This document shows positions 34,423 to 44,802 of a DNA stretch of 64,000 nt, in pieces. The position numbers were made by a program, and so were the translations under genes. The notes beneath the pieces are model-generated. The model worked only from the letters and a program-made list of their open reading frames with translations, was not told the DNA's origin and searched no databases. The stretch is from the NCBI RefSeq assembly GCF_000688335.1, contig NZ_JHZX01000001.1, positions 3,534,001 to 3,598,000 of the forward strand, written 5' to 3'. This DNA is from Sediminibacter sp. Hel_I_10 (GTDB taxonomy: Bacteria; Bacteroidota; Bacteroidia; Flavobacteriales; Flavobacteriaceae). Within the stretch, counting starts at the first letter, position 1, and each line of letters begins with the position of its first letter.

Positions 34423-35220
34423 TTATTCGTACCAATTGAGTTGTACAACCTCAATACTTTCATCGCCTTGATTCACAAGTGTTTTGAATTTATCAACATC
34501 ACTCAATCCTTCTGTACCTCTATAGTGGTAAGGATAGACTTTAGCAGGTTTAAACTCTAAAACAGCGCTTACAGCACTTTCAATTGGCATAGTGTAAGGT
34601 AAGTTCATGCATACAAAAGCAATGTCAATATCTTTTAAATTACGCATCTCTGGGATATCCTCTGTATCTCCAGAAATATATACCCGATCATCTCCTAGAG
34701 TTACCACATAACCATTACCACGGCCTTTAGTATGAAACTTTAAAGCTTCTTCACGTAAATTATACATAGGGATCGCTTCAACAGTATATCCATTTACAGT
34801 TTTGGTGTCGCCATTGTTCATAACGGTAAGTGTTCCGTATTTCAAATCTTCAGGAAACTGATCTACTACAGCTTGTGGAGCTACAATTGTAGCTTTCGAA
34901 AGATCTAAGGCCTTTAAGGTTTCGATGTCTAAATGGTCACCGTGTATGTCGGTAAGCATTACAATTTCTGGACTTGTATATTCAGAAAAAGCTTCTTTTC
35001 CGCCTGTAGGGTCTACATAAATAGCATTGTCACCATAGGTCAATACCATTGTGGCATGAGAAATAGGAGAAATTTCAAGCGATTTCTGTGTGGTTTCTTC
35101 TTGTTTGGTCATGCTAGATGCATCTGATGTCATATCCTGACTCACGTTATCTTTTTTATCAGACTTACAAGAGGTCATTAATGTGATGCAAGACATAAGT
35201 AAAAGTAAATTCGTTTTCAT
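34423..35220 (-). CDS. Metallo-beta-lactamase-fold lipoprotein hydrolase
   Basis: The 265-residue protein has a lipobox at Cys18 (Met-Thr-Ser-Cys). The MBL domain carries 'ISHATMVLTYGDNAIYVDPT', the metal motif 'LTDIHGDHLDIET' (a variant HxxDH), 'VYISGDTED' with the bridging Asp, and 'YPYHYRGT' with the last His. This UlaG/YtnP-like subgroup is often annotated only as MBL-fold hydrolase. A periplasmic or surface location follows from the lipobox. Substrate unknown. Confidence 0.87.
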   Translation of the reverse strand: MKTNLLLLMSCITLMTSCKSDKKDNVSQDMTSDASSMTKQEETTQKSLEISPISHATMVLTYGDNAIYVDPTGGKEAFSEYTSPEIVMLTDIHGDHLDIETLKALDLSKATIVAPQAVVDQFPEDLKYGTLTVMNNGDTKTVNGYTVEAIPMYNLREEALKFHTKGRGNGYVVTLGDDRVYISGDTEDIPEMRNLKDIDIAFVCMNLPYTMPIESAVSAVLEFKPAKVYPYHYRGTEGLSDVDKFKTLVNQGDESIEVVQLNWYE

Positions 35221-35404: not shown

Positions 35405-36745
35405 ATGTCTGACGATTTTGATTTACTTGAAACCAATACCAACGAAAAAAGTGAAAAGGTAGATGTCAATTGGGGTAAAGCCATTGACACCATGAAATCC
35501 AAACTAGCACAAGAAGATGATCCCGAAAGTCGTCAGAAAATATTGAATGCCACTTTAGATGATGTGGTTCATATGGCTGAAAAGGATAGAACAACCCTAT
35601 TAGATGCCATTAAGGACTTAACCGATTATCAAGATGAAGTCGGCATTCTCTTTGAAAACTTTTCTTCACTTAATGCTAATGAGCAAAAGGTAATTGATGA
35701 TGCCATCAAGCGTCTAGAGCGTGCTAAGGTAGAATTAGAAGATGCTGAAGCAAAACCAGATACCTGGTGGAATAATCTCTGGGGAAGAAAAAGTAAAATC
35801 AAGGAGGCAGAGCAAGAATTGCAAAACGCACAAAAAGATAGAGATGCGGCAGATAACAAAGCCAAATCGATGTTTCAAGACCGAATTGAAAATGCCGATG
35901 TGCAAACCTTGTTAAACGAGCTGAGTTTTAAATCCCAAGCCGCCGTAACCCGATTAAAAAATCGTGAAGTAGAAATCAAGGAAGTAGAAGATAAACTGCA
36001 AACCGCAATTGTTGAGGCCACAAAAAATCACACAAGAGCTTTAGAGAAGAAAAAAGAGGTTGAAGCTAAATTAGAAGAAAAATATGCAGCACTCAAACAA
36101 GCGCGTCAAGCCTTGGAGGAGATTGTTGACAAGCAATCTGCAGATTATGCACAAGCCATTGGCAAGGTTACTGGTTTGGAGCAGGAAGTAGAAGAATTAG
36201 AAGGACTTAAAAACGCCTATACAACGTTGGCCGCTTCTAAAGATAGTTTTGTACACAAGCATAACTTAACCATTAAGGTGTTGACTTCACTAAGAAGTAA
36301 TTTACAAACGCATCGCGCAAAACTGAAGAGTGATACCGAGGAACGTCTCAAATATTACGATGGTTACGTGGTGGCGCTTAAGGCTAGAACCGATCAAGAA
36401 TTCGCTGCCATTCTAGAGCATCTCGGTGTTAAAACCGATGAGCATATAGGAGAAACCTTAGCATCTATGCATACAGCAAGTGCCAGAGCACGTCAAGAAA
36501 TGATGGATAATATTCCTGTACACGAAAAAGTGATGCAAGGGGTCTACAGTAGTTATGCCGAAGCTTTACAAGAAATTAGAGCGAAAGATGTTGATATTCA
36601 AAAGAACTTTGCTGAACGTTATGGTATTGATATGAAAGAGATCTTTGAAGATTACTATAAGGCAGATGCCAATGCACCTTCTGCAGGCACAGCACCTCAA
36701 GCTACACCAGCAAAAGGAGCAGATAGTGAGGATTTACTGAGCTAA
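35405..36745 (+). CDS. Cytosolic coiled-coil protein, first gene of the AAA block
   Basis: The 446-residue protein has no signal or membrane segment. An acidic N-terminus (1-25) is followed by helical heptads from about 30 to 345, including 'KPDTWWNNLWGRKSKIKEAE', and a conserved-looking helical C-terminal part ('SLRSNLQTHRAKLKSDTEER', 'KYYDGYVVALKARTDQEFAA'). It ends in a Pro/Ala-rich tail. The layout recalls TelA-type stress proteins but I see no clear match. It heads a co-directional set with an AAA ATPase and may be its partner or scaffold; that is inference. The 184-base leader contains an AT-rich stretch with a small CGATA/TATCG hairpin at 35342. Confidence 0.85.
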   Translation: MSDDFDLLETNTNEKSEKVDVNWGKAIDTMKSKLAQEDDPESRQKILNATLDDVVHMAEKDRTTLLDAIKDLTDYQDEVGILFENFSSLNANEQKVIDDAIKRLERAKVELEDAEAKPDTWWNNLWGRKSKIKEAEQELQNAQKDRDAADNKAKSMFQDRIENADVQTLLNELSFKSQAAVTRLKNREVEIKEVEDKLQTAIVEATKNHTRALEKKKEVEAKLEEKYAALKQARQALEEIVDKQSADYAQAIGKVTGLEQEVEELEGLKNAYTTLAASKDSFVHKHNLTIKVLTSLRSNLQTHRAKLKSDTEERLKYYDGYVVALKARTDQEFAAILEHLGVKTDEHIGETLASMHTASARARQEMMDNIPVHEKVMQGVYSSYAEALQEIRAKDVDIQKNFAERYGIDMKEIFEDYYKADANAPSAGTAPQATPAKGADSEDLLS

Positions 36746-36778
36746 TAGAAATTTTATTTCACCATTTGATACATCACT

Positions 36779-36815
36779 TAAAGCGGAAGTAGTTTAACAA
36801 TCGCTTTCGCTTTTA
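36779..36815 (+). terminator. Hairpin between first and second genes of the block
   Basis: TAAAGCGGAAG and CTTTCGCTTTTA-type arms pair with a 17-base loop and a weak TTTTAAATTT tail. It could be a partial terminator setting the ratio of the coiled-coil protein to the downstream proteins. Confidence 0.5.
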
Positions 36816-36893
36816 AATTTATTTATAGTCTTAAACTTGTTTGATTATTAAGTCTTAACAAGAGGTATCAGCTAATTGTTTATAATTTAAATC

Positions 36894-37940
36894 ATGATCG
36901 TAACGCCATTAGATTCCGCAATTTTAGATTCTAAAGAGCAATATGTTTTCTATCACAAAAAGGTCGATTTCGTATTGAAGGAATTAATTGTAAGCGTTCA
37001 AAAGCATCGACTTTGTACAGAACAAGAACTTATTGTGTTTAAACAATATTGCGATTTGTTACTATATTCCATTGAGGCCATGCGCGTGAAATACATGTAT
37101 GACGACGAGGACAACATGAAGGTGGATCTTACCGATTCTGGATTTCCAAATTATTTAGAGTTTCGCTATCTATTTAACGATTTAGCCTTACGTGAAAATT
37201 ATTTGCATAAATTGAAATCGGTTGAGCAACTTCAAGATGAATTTTTAGAACAACTGCTTCGGAAAAAGGAGCCCATTAAAAAGGATAAGCTCTTTCAAGC
37301 GGCTTCAATTGTATACTACACCTCTGTTGAACAGAAATATATTTTTAACAGATTTGTACAAGGCAAAATTATTGAGGCTCCGCAAGGTGCGGCAGGAGCG
37401 TATATGACCAGTTGGAGTTTTTATGACGTATCGCATAACAGACCCTTTGTCTGCTTTATGTATTTTGATTATGATGGCAAGTCTATGGAGGCAGATCGGC
37501 CAGGGATTTATGAGGTACTGAAAAACGCAGCAGATCGCGATATGGACTTAGATACCATGGCCTACGGAATTGATCGGAAATTAGCAGACGTGAAACCCAA
37601 ATACATCAAACGCATTGATCTTGGACCATTTCATAATGTTTTTGCAAAGGACGAGAACGACATTACACATGCTATTTTAAAAAGCATCGCCCAAAAGGAA
37701 ATTCCTCTAGAATCTTTTGCCATATCTCTAAAAATCGATGAGGTATACTCAAAAAGTGAATTTAAAGAAGGGAATTACTTTAGTAAACAAACGCTTCAAA
37801 ACTGGGATACGGTTTTAAAAAACAACTATGTTTTTGCACCACACCGTATCATTCAACTGCTGTATAGTAAAACTCCAGAAATCATGAACCGTTTAGCGAA
37901 AGCACCGTTTGAGGTGGCGAGTTTGAATCTTAAAAATTAA
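36894..37940 (+). CDS. Unrecognised cytosolic protein
   Basis: The 348-residue protein has no signal or membrane segment. The first 150 residues look helical and the rest mixed alpha/beta, with 'SWSFYDVSHNRPFVCFMYFD' around 170-190 and 'YIKRIDLGPFHNVFAKDEND' around 240. No nucleotide-binding or catalytic motif is seen. It lies between the coiled-coil gene and the AAA ATPase gene (57-base gap to the latter) and so is likely part of the same pathway or complex. I cannot assign a family. Confidence 0.85.
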   Translation: MIVTPLDSAILDSKEQYVFYHKKVDFVLKELIVSVQKHRLCTEQELIVFKQYCDLLLYSIEAMRVKYMYDDEDNMKVDLTDSGFPNYLEFRYLFNDLALRENYLHKLKSVEQLQDEFLEQLLRKKEPIKKDKLFQAASIVYYTSVEQKYIFNRFVQGKIIEAPQGAAGAYMTSWSFYDVSHNRPFVCFMYFDYDGKSMEADRPGIYEVLKNAADRDMDLDTMAYGIDRKLADVKPKYIKRIDLGPFHNVFAKDENDITHAILKSIAQKEIPLESFAISLKIDEVYSKSEFKEGNYFSKQTLQNWDTVLKNNYVFAPHRIIQLLYSKTPEIMNRLAKAPFEVASLNLKN

Positions 37941-37997
37941 ATACCAGTTGACCTACTCAAATCGAGCATTCGGTTTGTCTAAACTAAAAACTTAACG

Positions 37998-39959
37998 ATG
38001 GAACATAACTCAACATTTCCCATAAAACAAAATGAACTCGATATGCTTCGTGATGAAGCGACCTCTTACATTAAAAGTGTACAGTGGGAGCAAGGGCAAC
38101 GTGCAAAAAGTAAGGATAAGGATGCTAAAGATGAATCCATTCTACTGTATCTCTCCAGAGCAAAAGGTAATGGCGGAGCAGAAGCGACCTCGGTTTCAAA
38201 AACAATTTTAGAGCTTAAAAAACGTTTATTGCCAGAGTCCATTGCCATTCCCTTGTACTTAAATCAAATGCTTTATGCGGTGCAAGAAGGGATTACTTTA
38301 GGGATTTGGATTAAGGATAGTTATTATGATGCTTCAGGACTTTCGAGTTTAAGTGAGAACAAATCGGCATTAGACAATTCCGGAAAGCGGGAATACGAAA
38401 GTAAGATGCAAACCGCAACGGCGTTTCAATTGTTTTCTACAGCGTATAAAATTCTTCATGACTTAAAACCAATAGCTTCCGATGATTTGAGTGTGATGCG
38501 CAACAAGTTCGCAGGGCTTCCAGAAGTGTCGCTAATGTCGCCTTTAAAAGGAATTTCCTGTGCCTTATTTTACTTTGATAAATATTTGGGACACCCCGAG
38601 ATCATTAAAACCGATAAGGATGTCATTGATTTTAGCGTTGTTTATTTTGAAGCGCTCATCGCTGAGATTCAAATGCGTAAAAGCAGTTTGGAGTATACAG
38701 AAACCATTGTTGACCGCACTTATAAATTAGAGAAAAGTGAATTTGCCATTTCAGGCTGGGACAATGTATTTCAAGGAGCAGCCAAAAGTGTAGAATTTAA
38801 TAAGATTAGATTCGATCAAATTGTTGGAAACAGAGATGCCAAACACTTTGCACGCCGTTTAACCGAGCGTCTATTGAGCTATGATTTTACAGCTAAGAAA
38901 AATCCGTTTCAAGAACTTGGCGGGTTTATGCCAGTGTTTATGGGTTACGGTATTCCTGGAACAGGAAAAAGTATGCTCATTGCGGCCATTGCTACAAGGT
39001 TAAAAGAGCACTGCGATAACTTAGACATTCCGTTTTTGTTCCATCCTATGCCAGATACGCTGATTTCAACCTTTCAAGGTGGTTCTGCCGAAAAGATGGT
39101 GGATTGGATGAAGCCCTTACAAGATCCATCTAAGTTGATATTTGCTCCTATTGATGACGCTGAAAATAATCTGCAAGAGCGTACCGCACAGGGTGTTTCC
39201 GCAGGAGTGAAAGAAGTGATTGGCGTGTTTTTGAGATATACCGAAGGCGCCTATGCTGTAAACTACGGCAATAGTTCTATTGGTTTATTTACAAATCTTC
39301 CCGAGATGTTAGATAAAGCCGTGATATCAAGAGTACAAGGGCGGTTTAAAATTGATGGTGCAAGGAACGAGCATGATTTTTTAGATCAAGATCATTTATG
39401 GTGGCGTAAGTTTGAGGAGACCATGCCCAATTTTGTAAATATGGAAGGGCCTGAAAATTATGACTATTTAAAGAATCAAGGTTTGGCCAAGAATATGGGA
39501 GAGATCTTAAAGGTGGTAAATAAGCCTACCGAGGAGCGTATGAAACAAGTTTATAACACGGTAGATCAGCAATACAATGCCAACGAACATTTGTTTTATG
39601 CCAATTTGTATAAAGAGGTTCAAGAAGTCTTTCCGTTTTTCTCTTCTCGAGATGTGCGAAACATTCAAAGTGCGATTTCATTAAGATTAACCGATTTTGA
39701 TTTGGATGAATATTGGTTTGAAAATCCAGACATCTACTTTAAGAAGGATTATGACACCAAATTTGGCATGCTACAGGAATTGATGCGCGCCAATATGAAA
39801 GGTTTAAATTTTTCTGAAATTAGACGGCAAGAAGTGGTGCGTTATTTAGACAATGTGGCCACCATTGCAGATACCGATTTTAAACGTAAGGTCGAGGCTA
39901 GGGTAAATCAACTCAACGTTGAGCTAGAAGCAAAAAGTCAGTTTGGAAAACAATATTAG
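37998..39959 (+). CDS. AAA-family ATPase
   Basis: The 653-residue protein has a 300-residue helical N-terminal region, then one AAA module. Walker A is 'GYGIPGTGKS' (316-325), the Walker B-like strand is 'LIFAPIDDAEN' (380-390, with Asp-Asp instead of Asp-Glu), the sensor 1 Asn is in 'GLFTNLPEM', and a putative Arg finger is Arg445 in 'VISRVQGRF'. A 180-residue helical C-terminus follows. A pore-loop-like 'TFQGGSAEKM' (358-367) suggests a remodelling ATPase. Its neighbours (coiled-coil and 348-residue proteins upstream, Nudix pair downstream) are its probable partners. Confidence 0.88.
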   Translation: MEHNSTFPIKQNELDMLRDEATSYIKSVQWEQGQRAKSKDKDAKDESILLYLSRAKGNGGAEATSVSKTILELKKRLLPESIAIPLYLNQMLYAVQEGITLGIWIKDSYYDASGLSSLSENKSALDNSGKREYESKMQTATAFQLFSTAYKILHDLKPIASDDLSVMRNKFAGLPEVSLMSPLKGISCALFYFDKYLGHPEIIKTDKDVIDFSVVYFEALIAEIQMRKSSLEYTETIVDRTYKLEKSEFAISGWDNVFQGAAKSVEFNKIRFDQIVGNRDAKHFARRLTERLLSYDFTAKKNPFQELGGFMPVFMGYGIPGTGKSMLIAAIATRLKEHCDNLDIPFLFHPMPDTLISTFQGGSAEKMVDWMKPLQDPSKLIFAPIDDAENNLQERTAQGVSAGVKEVIGVFLRYTEGAYAVNYGNSSIGLFTNLPEMLDKAVISRVQGRFKIDGARNEHDFLDQDHLWWRKFEETMPNFVNMEGPENYDYLKNQGLAKNMGEILKVVNKPTEERMKQVYNTVDQQYNANEHLFYANLYKEVQEVFPFFSSRDVRNIQSAISLRLTDFDLDEYWFENPDIYFKKDYDTKFGMLQELMRANMKGLNFSEIRRQEVVRYLDNVATIADTDFKRKVEARVNQLNVELEAKSQFGKQY

Positions 39960-40030
39960 CGTTTTGACATAAAAGGAGAATCCAATTTCTTTTAAGTTCT
40001 AAACGCACCGTAATAATTTAGAAACAACGC

Positions 40031-40609
40031 ATGCAAAGATTAAAAAATATAACACACCATTTACTGTCTAATGATTGGGCTACTTTAAACAGGATTGATT
40101 ACGATTATCAGTTTGATGACGGCTCTTGGAAACGGATTTCGAGAGAGTGCTATAACCGCGGAAATGGGACAGCTATTTTACTCTACAACATGGAGAAATC
40201 AACCCTTATTCTAACCAAGCAGTTTCGAATGCCAGCCTACGAGAACAATCAAGAAGAGGGCATGAGCATTGAGGTTTGTGCCGGAGCATTAGATAAAAAT
40301 GAAGATCCTGAAACGTGTATTATCAGAGAAGTTGAGGAGGAGACAGGCTACAAGATCAATAGTGCGTCGCTGGTTCTGGAAACATATATGTCACCTGGAG
40401 CCATGACTGAAAAATTATACCTTTTTACTTCGGAATATACCGATGCCATGAAAATTGACACGGGTGGCGGATTGGAGAGCGAAAACGAAGAAATAGAAGT
40501 CATGGAATTGCATATTTCCGAAGTGTTAAAGATGATTGATAACAAGGACATTATCGATGCCAAAACCATCATGTTGATTCAATTTGCACAAATTCATAAG
40601 CTACTGTAA
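40031..40609 (+). CDS. Nudix hydrolase, NudK-like
   Basis: The 192-residue protein has a complete Nudix box: Gly-x5-Glu-x7-Arg-Glu-Val-x-Glu-Glu-x-Gly starting in 'GALDKNEDPETC' near residue 88. The N-terminal strand pattern 'FDDGSWKRISRECYNRGNG' and 'LTKQFRMPAYENN' matches the GDP-mannose/ADP-ribose pyrophosphatase (NudK/NudF) branch. All metal-binding Glu residues are present. Its stop overlaps the start of the next gene by one base (TAATG), so the two are made together. A nucleotide-sugar or ADP-ribose-like substrate is inferred from the branch only. Confidence 0.9.
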   Translation: MQRLKNITHHLLSNDWATLNRIDYDYQFDDGSWKRISRECYNRGNGTAILLYNMEKSTLILTKQFRMPAYENNQEEGMSIEVCAGALDKNEDPETCIIREVEEETGYKINSASLVLETYMSPGAMTEKLYLFTSEYTDAMKIDTGGGLESENEEIEVMELHISEVLKMIDNKDIIDAKTIMLIQFAQIHKLL

Positions 40610-41844
40610 TGCAAAAATTAAAAGCGGCAAACTTATACTTAAGTGAACTTATTCCCATTTCAGGAAAGTTGGTAGAACGTTACAACAAATGCCTCAAGAA
40701 GCTAGGGTTTTCTGAAACCAAACTTGAGAAGTTTTCTATTGACGGCATGGGCTGGAGCCCAGAAATTTCCGAAGAGAAAGGAGAACCCTATTATTTATGT
40801 AACGGAGAGTCTAATCCGCACGCCATTATCATTACTCCGCTACAACATAAAAAACCATTATACATGCCCTTTCATACGTTTGATAGGGACATGATGACGC
40901 TTATTTTTAAAACCTATGGCAGTAAAATTAATGACATTACTAGAGATTCCGCCATTTGCATAGATTTTGATCAAAAGATCGATGCGTTTTATGAGCCCTT
41001 AGATGTCTTAAAATATAAAAACGTAACCATAAGATTTCACCTTATTGACAATCTTGACAACGTACGGGAAACACAACTGCAGCTTATTGATAAATTTAAA
41101 CGAGGTAATAACTTTATTGATGAGGGGCTTCATGCTCAATTATTGGAATCTGCCAGAAGATATGGCGATCTACGAACTCGAGATTTATCCCTAGAAGAGC
41201 TACAATTTGAAACAAACTCCTTTTACACCAAATCATTTGGAGGTGTTTATGTACTGCGCGATTTTATTGCGCCCATGGTTGTGTTTGAGGATATGAAATG
41301 GTATAAGGAAGCCATAAAAGATACCCTTCAAGACGTAATTATCTTTCATATATCACAACCAGAGCTTATGGAAAAGCTACGTGATCATATCATTATTGCT
41401 TATGATTTAGAAGATGTTGTTAAAGAAGCACGCTATGAGCGGATTAAAAAATTTATGTTTGCCCAATATTTAAAAGATACCAGTCATCCTATAAAAGATA
41501 TACTTAACGATCAATTGCTGTTTAAAAGTTATCTCAATAAAATGGATATTGATACAAGAAAACGGGTAATGAGCGTTGAGCGTTATCTCGAAAAATTAGA
41601 AACGAGTAATCAATTTAAAATTGCAGATATTGTAGACAACGACCTGTTTGAAGCAATGCATGAACCACATTCGAGCCTACATCCCAAACATCAGGATTTG
41701 ATCTGGAAGTTATTAATGAATATTTCAGCAAAGGACGTCCTCTTTTTGTATTGGTATGACAAGCTGCAGTTCTACAAAGCTTATGATACTTGGGACGAAT
41801 CCTTGAAAGACTGGGCGATTGAGCAGATTAAATCCTATATTTGA
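40609..41844 (+). CDS. Unrecognised protein translationally coupled to Nudix
   Basis: The 411-residue protein has no signal peptide or membrane span. It starts on the overlapping TAATG after the Nudix gene. Notable stretches are 'SIDGMGWSPEISEEKGEPYY', 'AICIDFDQKIDAFYEPLDVL' and 'DVVKEARYERIKKFMFAQYL', with a helical C-terminal half. It may be a DUF6638-type protein, but I cannot confirm this. The coupling suggests it acts on or with the Nudix product. It ends the cytosolic part of the block and is followed by a 246-base gap. Confidence 0.82.
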   Translation: MQKLKAANLYLSELIPISGKLVERYNKCLKKLGFSETKLEKFSIDGMGWSPEISEEKGEPYYLCNGESNPHAIIITPLQHKKPLYMPFHTFDRDMMTLIFKTYGSKINDITRDSAICIDFDQKIDAFYEPLDVLKYKNVTIRFHLIDNLDNVRETQLQLIDKFKRGNNFIDEGLHAQLLESARRYGDLRTRDLSLEELQFETNSFYTKSFGGVYVLRDFIAPMVVFEDMKWYKEAIKDTLQDVIIFHISQPELMEKLRDHIIIAYDLEDVVKEARYERIKKFMFAQYLKDTSHPIKDILNDQLLFKSYLNKMDIDTRKRVMSVERYLEKLETSNQFKIADIVDNDLFEAMHEPHSSLHPKHQDLIWKLLMNISAKDVLFLYWYDKLQFYKAYDTWDESLKDWAIEQIKSYI

Positions 41845-43107: not shown

Positions 43108-44802
43108 ATGATTAAGACCTATTGGAATAAGGGAAAGAAGCAAAAAGTCATTACGGTTTTGTTGATTTTGATTGTGGTGATAGCCTTGTTTATATTGCGA
43201 GATGACTATCAACCCGCTTTACTATTTGTGCGCAAATATATTTTTGTAATCTTAGTAAGTGCTTTGGTGCTCTTTTTTGGTCTTAGAAGCTTTAGAAGTT
43301 CGCCGAGTACAGGTAAACGATTGGGCATTTTGGCGTTACTCATTGGTTTTTTTGCGCTTCTTTATGCTGTGGGGTGGCATTTAAAACTTTACGATTATAT
43401 GAAGACTTATAACGTTTTTAATAATCTCAATAGGGTTGAAATTAATGAATTGCCTCTAACTCAAAATGAACGCATTCAGCCACTTCGTAATATTTTTTCT
43501 ATGGCAAATGAAAGTGTTGGAGAAACAAAGGATGTCTCTCTGCCTCATTTGGTTAGGGTGGATGATCAAAATAAATGGACCATGGCCATTCAGCCTTCAG
43601 AAAAATATACCTTACAGCAAATAAGTGATAATACAGAAGAGGTGTTTTCTGTTTCAAGCACCACACCATTTCCTCGTTTTTCTGCGGAAAACAGAATTCC
43701 TGTAACCTTCTCAATAGGAGAATCTTTAAAATTTAGTCGGAACACTTATAATGCAGTGGTACAACGATTTAATCCGTGGATGCTGCTCAATTATGAGCCT
43801 AGTGATACTTACTACATGAAAAATGACCAAGGAAATTGGGTGCAAGTGGTGAGTTTGATTAAATGGAAAGGGTTTTTCTTCCCCTATCCAAGTTTTGGAG
43901 GAGTGATGGTGATTGAAAGTGGAGCACATGATTTTAATGATTATCTAGAGCGTATCGCCATAGGTATGGGAACTTATATTGCTCCAGAAGAGATGAAAAA
44001 CCATCCTTACTTAACTAAGCAAAACACACTTGCGGAGAAGGTATCAAGGCTTCAGGCAGAATCCTTGAAATTTTTAGGTGGTTTTAGCGATCCGTTACCG
44101 TGGAATATGGAAACGGCGGTTAAAATTCCCAATCTGCCTGATGATCAAAATCAACAGCCCTTTGTCACCGATTTTGATTTTGCGGGTGCCGAGAATGATG
44201 CCTACAGCGGACTCTACCATTGGTTTGGTCTAGAGCCTGTGGGAGCAGAGCGTACCAGTTTAACTTACAGTGTATTTATACCTGCTGACGGTACAGACAA
44301 ACTTTATTATTACGATCACGCCTCTAAAAAAGAAGGGTACGCGGGAGTTTCTGCAATGCCTCTAAAAGTTATTGAATCTCGTAAGGAGTTTGATTGGTCT
44401 GTAAATAAACCTGTAGAATTTAGACCTTACATTAAAGATATTGCAGGCCGTAAACGTTTGTTTTTCTTAGGAACAATCTCTGCAATACGGGATACTGCGG
44501 CTGGACAATTTGATGGCTCTGCTACACCAGATTTGGCGCTAATAGATAGTGAATATAGAGATGTGATTTGGATAGATGTTAAGCATCCGAGTACTTGGGA
44601 TAAAGAAGTTTATGATCAACTTAATGAAGCTTGGCGCACAAGTGAAGGTATAGGGTATTATTACGAAGAGGAGTTGGAAGATAAGGATGTTCAGCAGACT
44701 ATGGACTCTATTTCGGCCATCCCTATCGAAAATCAAAACGATAAGGAAATTCAACGCCTACAAAGACAACTGGATTCTCTCAAGGGAGTCAATACCCAGT
44801 AA
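43108..44802 (+). CDS. Large membrane-anchored protein, unrecognised
   Basis: The 564-residue protein has three hydrophobic segments in the first 95 residues (about 15-31, 43-57, 73-89). A large soluble domain of about 450 residues follows, with 'NPWMLLNYEPSDTYYMKNDQ', 'FFFPYPSFGGVMVIESG' and 'SGLYHWFGLEPVGAERTSLT'. The C-terminal 50 residues are acidic with a Gln/Leu helix. The soluble part should face the periplasm if the N-terminus is inside (KGKKQK leader). No catalytic motif is seen. It is the last and largest of the membrane genes behind the AAA block. Confidence 0.8.
   Translation: MIKTYWNKGKKQKVITVLLILIVVIALFILRDDYQPALLFVRKYIFVILVSALVLFFGLRSFRSSPSTGKRLGILALLIGFFALLYAVGWHLKLYDYMKTYNVFNNLNRVEINELPLTQNERIQPLRNIFSMANESVGETKDVSLPHLVRVDDQNKWTMAIQPSEKYTLQQISDNTEEVFSVSSTTPFPRFSAENRIPVTFSIGESLKFSRNTYNAVVQRFNPWMLLNYEPSDTYYMKNDQGNWVQVVSLIKWKGFFFPYPSFGGVMVIESGAHDFNDYLERIAIGMGTYIAPEEMKNHPYLTKQNTLAEKVSRLQAESLKFLGGFSDPLPWNMETAVKIPNLPDDQNQQPFVTDFDFAGAENDAYSGLYHWFGLEPVGAERTSLTYSVFIPADGTDKLYYYDHASKKEGYAGVSAMPLKVIESRKEFDWSVNKPVEFRPYIKDIAGRKRLFFLGTISAIRDTAAGQFDGSATPDLALIDSEYRDVIWIDVKHPSTWDKEVYDQLNEAWRTSEGIGYYYEEELEDKDVQQTMDSISAIPIENQNDKEIQRLQRQLDSLKGVNTQ

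Follow-up and report, generated by a model that had tools for sequence, protein, structure and literature searches.

A AAA ATPase and a coiled-coil protein encoded with conserved partners in Flavobacteriaceae, Vibrio, and rhizobia

Results and discussion

Genes at the locus

We investigated a group of co-directional genes, centered on a AAA ATPase and a coiled-coil protein (CC), in a 64,000-nucleotide stretch of DNA from the flavobacterium Sediminibacter sp. Hel_I_10 (hereafter the window: positions 3534001–3598000 of a 4.1 Mb single-contig genome; coordinates below are counted within the window unless they carry another label). An original prediction, made from this stretch alone, had proposed an undescribed AAA ATPase system of five genes, with a coiled-coil partner and a coupled pair consisting of a Nudix hydrolase (NUD) and an unknown protein. 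All five open reading frames (446, 348, 653, 192, and 411 amino acids (aa)) lie on the + strand as claimed (Table 1), and the genes are indeed linked, but the unit extends further, to position 44802, where it takes in two membrane proteins (M178 and M564), and it does not need the Nudix gene. The core of four genes (CC, P348, AAA ATPase, and DUF6638) adjoins in other genomes, also beyond Bacteroidota, with its order kept across phyla, which upholds the proposal of an undescribed ATPase system with a coiled-coil partner. Retention of this set in Flavobacteriaceae, Vibrio, and rhizobia, even after dispersal of its genes, points to a cellular function, one for which we found no description in the open-access literature. 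For three of the four core proteins no function is known, and two of these could not be assigned to any named family in the libraries searched. Cultured marine bacteria and rhizobia from soil are among the hosts.

Family assignments agreed with much of what had been predicted. The 653-aa protein scored above the Pfam cut-off for the AAA family (PF00004; 36.1 versus 21.2 bits), and the 192-aa protein above those for Nudix (PF00293) and for TIGR00052 (143.5 versus 79.55 bits), which places it in the YffH/AdpP subfamily; its score for the NudK equivalog (181.6) fell short of the cut-off of 234. Of the three proteins said to lack a nameable motif, the 411-aa one is a DUF6638 protein (PF20343; 118.7 versus a cut-off of 27 bits), while the 446-aa and 348-aa proteins are without a family; P348 had no Pfam match over cut-off and none in NCBIfam or the PDB. 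Profile searches of the PDB with P348 and DUF6638 yielded nothing at E ≤ 1, and inspection by eye of the invariant residues of both revealed no recognisable catalytic site. We found neither DUF6638 (PF20343) nor a description of this operon type in the open-access literature searched.

Table 1. Features of the locus and of a dispersed copy. Counts refer to the 83 rows described in the text.
Feature	Position	Strand	Rows with gene (of 83)	Description
CC, 446 aa	35405-36745	+	81	Core gene 1; heptad periodicity
CC C-terminal tail	36665-36742	+		Variable stretch; its acidic-dileucine tip is conserved and mostly reads DD[LM]L[SG] among orthologues
P348, 348 aa	36894-37940	+	82	Core gene 2; no known family
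AAA ATPase, 653 aa	37998-39959	+	83	Core gene 3; PF00004; one AAA module after a long N-terminal region
Walker A, GIPGTGKS	38949-38972	+		G318, G323, and K324 in 84/84 sequences; residue 325 S in 81, T in 3
Pore-loop-1-like [FY]QG	39072-39080	+		F 81 or Y 3, Q 84, G 84 of 84 sequences
Walker B Asp-Asp	39153-39158	+		D386 and D387 in 84/84 sequences; Asp at the usual catalytic Glu
NUD, 192 aa	40031-40609	+	57	YffH/AdpP-type Nudix hydrolase, TIGR00052, E 5.6e-42; optional passenger
DUF6638 protein, 411 aa	40609-41844	+	82	Core gene 4; PF20343, E 3.8e-34
M178, 178 aa	42091-42627	+	80	Three hydrophobic segments; Flavobacteriaceae form
M97, 97 aa	42657-42950	+	1	Two hydrophobic segments; not conserved
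M564, 564 aa	43108-44802	+	79	Large conserved domain besides three hydrophobic segments at the N-terminus; Flavobacteriaceae form
Dispersed pieces in genome G318	L143; L144; G318:C1:2678135-2679721			Set still complete

Retention of the gene set in Flavobacteriaceae

To describe gene order we used 83 rows, comprising 80 loci (the best 80 of at least 546 relatives, and thus biased to close relatives) and three from further genomes; two of these rows, L042 and L117, apparently represent a single contig, as both have a length of 282827, leaving 82 distinct loci. Throughout, the order was CC, P348, AAA ATPase, (Nudix), DUF6638, M178, M564, and every absence of one of the six genes other than the Nudix gene (Table 1) coincided with truncation of the locus, either where the contig stops or where the fetched sequence does. 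In an evenly drawn sample of 247 Bacteroidota genomes, which included that of the window, the full-length ATPase, DUF6638, P348, and M564 co-occurred in the same four, all of them from the window's family and one the window's own; P348 was found in these four and no others. Partial ATPase matches (31 of the 35 in this sample, at most 32% identical) were left out of the system counts. Among 279 Flavobacteriaceae genomes, 85 carried the ATPase, with one match each, and 84 carried DUF6638, all 84 being shared. The sole exception (G511) has a contig that stops 43 residues into DUF6638. M564 was present in all ten system genomes in which it was sought, in G511 as a fragment on a different contig.

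The distance between the ATPase and DUF6638 genes was below 2 kb in 79 of the 84 shared genomes, below 10 kb in 83, and 752 kb in the remaining one, G318. There, CC-P348-AAA, DUF6638-M178, and M564 occupy three distant places of one contig with all six genes kept, so that retention does not depend on adjacency. This dispersal amounts to a natural test of functional linkage. Given the co-retention in the family, the order in the loci, and the set kept in G318, functional linkage is very likely, and we are close to certain that the six genes work together. The opposite view, that these are neighbouring housekeeping genes without functional coupling, draws on the often long spacers with unrelated genes and does suit the Nudix gene; for the other six it is contradicted by the 84/84 co-retention, by G318, and by the order kept across phyla, and we regard it as scarcely credible.

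Patchiness within the family (85/279) could also be the mark of an anti-phage or other defence system, as could a weak, AAA-level PADLOC match of the ATPase to IetA (6.2e-6) and a Sinorhizobium copy interrupted by an insertion sequence and a gene with an endonuclease domain. Against this stand the single ATPase match per family genome and the recurrent surroundings, with an ABC-F gene upstream in 57 of the 83 rows and a hutG-like gene downstream in 44 (both named by eye). No effector-like enzyme is fixed in the set, and the ATPase had no match in 50,697 phage records, nor in viral contigs, where the scan was limited to two peptide patterns. The idea of a stress, defence, or remodelling complex has thus gained little positive evidence in its defence part, which we consider quite improbable.

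Homologous loci in Vibrio and rhizobia

Proteobacteria were covered through plasmid-collection records, ten of which contained the ATPase (four Vibrio, four Sinorhizobium, one Shinella, and one Rhizobium). The order CC, P348, AAA ATPase, DUF6638 was found in all six of the ten that were examined, namely three from Vibrio (L038, L140, and L142) and one each from Sinorhizobium (L039), Shinella (L040), and Rhizobium leguminosarum (L141). In L038, L039, L040, and L141 the order was established by similarity, whereas for L140 and L142 it rests on where the annotated genes lie and how long they are, next to the genes also found beside L038. Profiles of the Bacteroidota proteins matched those built from L038-L040 with E values of 1.4e-9 for CC (96.4% probability), 3.3e-16 for P348, 7.1e-48 for the ATPase, and 4.7e-30 for DUF6638; the twelve mismatched pairs reached at most 10.1% probability, so like matched like only.

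The Vibrio DUF6638 protein, annotated as such in its record, matched the window's weakly (55 residues, E 2.8e-6), a direct DUF6638 search found the rhizobial records and not the Vibrio ones, and BLAST with the window CC matched only the Vibrio CC (9e-8). The Nudix gene had no match in L038, L039, or L040, and in L141 the matched parts of the ATPase and DUF6638 are about 50 bases apart. In the S. meliloti locus, the endonuclease-domain gene and an ISRm16 transposase lie between the ATPase and DUF6638 (L039:11914-13659), where many Flavobacteriaceae have the Nudix gene.

The ATPase and its comparison with known systems

Motif counts were made on 84 ATPase sequences (that of the window, those of the 80 loci, and three from Proteobacteria). 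PDB profile searches gave VCP-like, Cdc48, proteasomal, and Vps4 ATPases as the best matches, all confined to the AAA module. Relative to a VCP-like ATPase, [FY]QG, presumably a pore loop, aligned with Tyr-x-Gly, and the Walker B Asp-Asp aligned with Asp-Glu; a sensor-1 Asn and two arginines (arginine fingers) were kept in 84/84 sequences. The protein thus shares Walker A, the aromatic-Q-G motif, the sensor-1 Asn, and the two arginines with VCP/Cdc48, Vps4, and the proteasomal Rpt ATPases, and differs from them in its single module, its own long N-terminal region, and an Asp in place of the Walker B Glu in 84/84. Pfam searches detected neither a MIT nor a protease domain in the window ATPase, and even at E ≤ 1 MIT matched none of the three ATPases scanned for it (window, L038, and L039).

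The pairing of a Vps4-like module with a long helical protein, in a unit that also encodes membrane proteins, recalls ESCRT-III/Vps4 and PspA/Vipp1. We therefore weighed a strict form of this likeness, in which the locus would carry out ESCRT-III/Vps4-like or phage-shock-like remodelling with CC as a highly diverged PspA or Snf7 homologue. Vps4 is among the PDB matches, the Flavobacteriaceae unit includes membrane proteins, and PspA or Snf7 genes sometimes adjoin AAA+ ATPases in bacteria, according to a survey (PMC11237479) whose passages on this point do not describe the four-gene set. By sequence, however, CC is not detectably PspA or Snf7: three CC profiles reached 12.0, 1.2, and 3.7% probability against a 28-sequence PspA profile, versus 99.0% when the PspA set itself was split, and no PspA, Snf7, or MIT Pfam match at E ≤ 1 was found in the scanned proteins of the window, Vibrio, and Sinorhizobium. 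To our knowledge, P348 and DUF6638 have no counterpart in either system. Homology of this kind is accordingly an unlikely explanation. Neither TelA nor PspA had a match in the genome of the window, and one system genome (G088) does carry PspA, showing that the two are not exclusive.

Other candidates were compared in the same way. CC, like proteins of the TelA/XpaC and Ter loci, is cytoplasmic and helical, a likeness to TelA that was seen by eye only; it scored 0.1–0.2% probability against a four-sequence TelA alignment, and M178 scored 0.2% against the gene beside TelA in L125, assumed from its position to be XpaC. In IetAS operons, IetA is accompanied by IetS, a subtilisin-like protease of the subtilase family, and ATPases of the MoxR/RavA-ViaA type are paired with a VWA-domain protein; a scan of ten proteins between 34423 and 45448 gave neither a subtilase nor a VWA match at E ≤ 1. 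As far as sequence comparison can tell, Vps4/ESCRT-III, PspA, TelA/XpaC, IetAS, and MoxR-VWA each fail a defining feature.

The coiled-coil protein and its tail

The predicted coiled-coil character of the 446-aa protein was borne out by a 3.5-residue heptad periodicity above that of shuffled sequences, with z = 5.1 in the best of four hand-chosen segments and z from 2.1 to 4.8 in 77-residue windows over residues 1-287, weakening further on. Mean pairwise identity of CC was 86% and residues 261-360 were nearly invariant, a degree of conservation that would fit extensive contacts. Toward the C-terminus, the linker has a conservation of 0.64 (78 rows), the last ~25 residues vary, and the end fits [DE][DE][LM]L followed by at most one S, G, or N in 77 of 78 sequences, the other being NDLLS. 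The distantly related G318 and G388 carry the tip too, and among the 74 window frames of 100 aa or more, CC alone ends in such a tip. A conserved tip on a variable tether would be typical of docking peptides.

Membrane proteins of the Flavobacteriaceae unit

M178 had a JAB match below cut-off (E 0.15). A DUF4199 match was found in 25 of 31 M564 members (best 3.8e-6); the window protein is below the cut-off, and the match spans the hydrophobic N-terminus. The M564 profile had no PDB match at E ≤ 1, three single-sequence PDB matches (E 0.38-0.47) were taken as chance, and M564 had no match in plasmids or phages. A comparison of M564 with a two-sequence DUF2333 alignment gave 0.3% probability; in the open-access literature DUF2333 is mentioned in a paper on a Pseudomonas T6SS, and a search for TelA/XpaC led to one on Listeria. 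A weak, partial M564 match in G072 (E 7.8e-4) was set aside, its neighbourhood being unrelated (open reading frames judged by eye).

The Nudix gene as a probable passenger

The original prediction had coupled the Nudix gene to DUF6638 as the nucleotide-processing arm of the system, and this was not supported. When 18 genomes were chosen through their loci, the link appeared tight, as the 11 picked without a Nudix gene at the locus have none at all and the 7 picked with it hold one each; a wider set of 42 of the 85 system genomes and 38 without the system (a non-random choice from search lists) undid this impression. Among the 42, the family was within 3 kb of the ATPase in 18, only elsewhere in 7, and absent from 17, and it occurred in 26 of the 38 genomes without the system. 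Because the family is often absent from or away from the locus and frequent without the system, NUD is a common gene, which in some of the Flavobacteriaceae has become lodged between the ATPase and DUF6638 genes. The one-base overlap of NUD and DUF6638 exists in the window but is not a conserved trait, since the genes overlap at that junction in 7 of 51 relatives (29 of 54 at the AAA-NUD junction; start codons were picked by script for both counts). The pairwise distances of NUD showed the poorest agreement with most of the core proteins (r 0.46 for the ATPase, the same value as for M178), a pattern that lends weak support to passenger status. A role tied to the machine is possible in lineages that hold NUD there, and is not needed.

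A possible ATP-driven remodelling machine

We hypothesize, with a probability of roughly one half, that a threading AAA ATPase remodels a dedicated coiled-coil assembly, which in Flavobacteriaceae would be held at the inner membrane. In this reading the locus encodes one dedicated ATP-driven machine rather than unrelated neighbours, built from a classic-type AAA ATPase and its fixed partners CC, P348, and DUF6638. Mechanistically, the coiled coils of CC would let it form a scaffold or filament, on which P348 and DUF6638 would place the ATPase as adaptors, and the ATPase would thread and remodel or disassemble this assembly, while M178 and M564 would hold the machine at the inner membrane in Flavobacteriaceae, perhaps via the tip of the CC tail. 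Remodelling is the simplest mechanism because the ATPase is the only fixed enzyme, its three partners are apparently non-catalytic, and its module is of the threading type. What the data show is the linkage and co-retention of the genes, their cross-phylum homology, and the ATPase motifs; that the proteins form a complex, in which direction the ATPase acts, how the membrane is involved, and what the machine does for the cell are what we infer from them.

Several points weigh against this hypothesis. With Asp in place of the Walker B Glu in all 84 sequences, hydrolysis could be weak or unusual. As CC has no significant similarity to PspA or TelA, its putative assembly is deduced from coiled-coil character alone. 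Furthermore, M178 and M564 had no match in L038-L040, and none of the three proteobacterial CC proteins in the alignment has the tip. The next gene downstream in Vibrio is mfd; in L039 and L040 a DUF2333 protein, not M564-like by profile, is encoded downstream and adjoins DUF6638, and no DUF2333 protein was detected in R. leguminosarum L141. Since tip, M178, and M564 are all unmatched in the proteobacterial loci, membrane attachment may be lineage-specific. That the tip and the membrane pair are missing together from L038-L040 would also suggest that the CC tail binds this pair.

The same proteins could be read in two further ways. In the first, the ATPase would be a client-specific chaperone or activase, and the four-protein complex, with CC as a rigid adaptor and not the substrate, would assemble or repair one enzyme or membrane complex encoded elsewhere. 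The long N-terminal region and three fixed partners of the ATPase agree with this, as do the lack of a second fixed enzyme in the locus and the large, highly conserved M564 domain outside the hydrophobic segments; no client gene, however, is regularly found beside the cassette, where inserted genes are miscellaneous and flanks differ by lineage, and we treat this explanation as a tentative possibility. In the second, the locus would be a second, independent analogue of ESCRT-III/Vps4 in bacteria, in which CC would form membrane-associated filaments of a new fold, the ATPase, P348, and DUF6638 would extract subunits from them and so reshape or repair the inner membrane, and M178 and M564 would be a lineage-specific receptor of the acidic-dileucine tail; this is speculative, and we hold it to be doubtful.

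Other observations around the locus

Promoter-like and terminator-like sites were no more frequent at the locus than expected by chance, nor was a Bacteroidota-type -7 motif. Just upstream of CC, the window encodes a divergent metallo-beta-lactamase-fold protein (34423-35220), which is kept there in 27 of the 83 rows. Spacers between the cassette genes (L045-L124) are often long and contain unrelated small genes, among them a family of ~140 aa in 17 places that presumably encodes a four-helix protein, and others that we take, by eye, to be toxin-antitoxin or GIY-YIG-like. In an uncultured Tenacibaculum, a gap of ~9 kb between the ATPase and DUF6638 (L042:5714-14838, L117:11951-21087) holds the Nudix gene and a 1490-aa frame.

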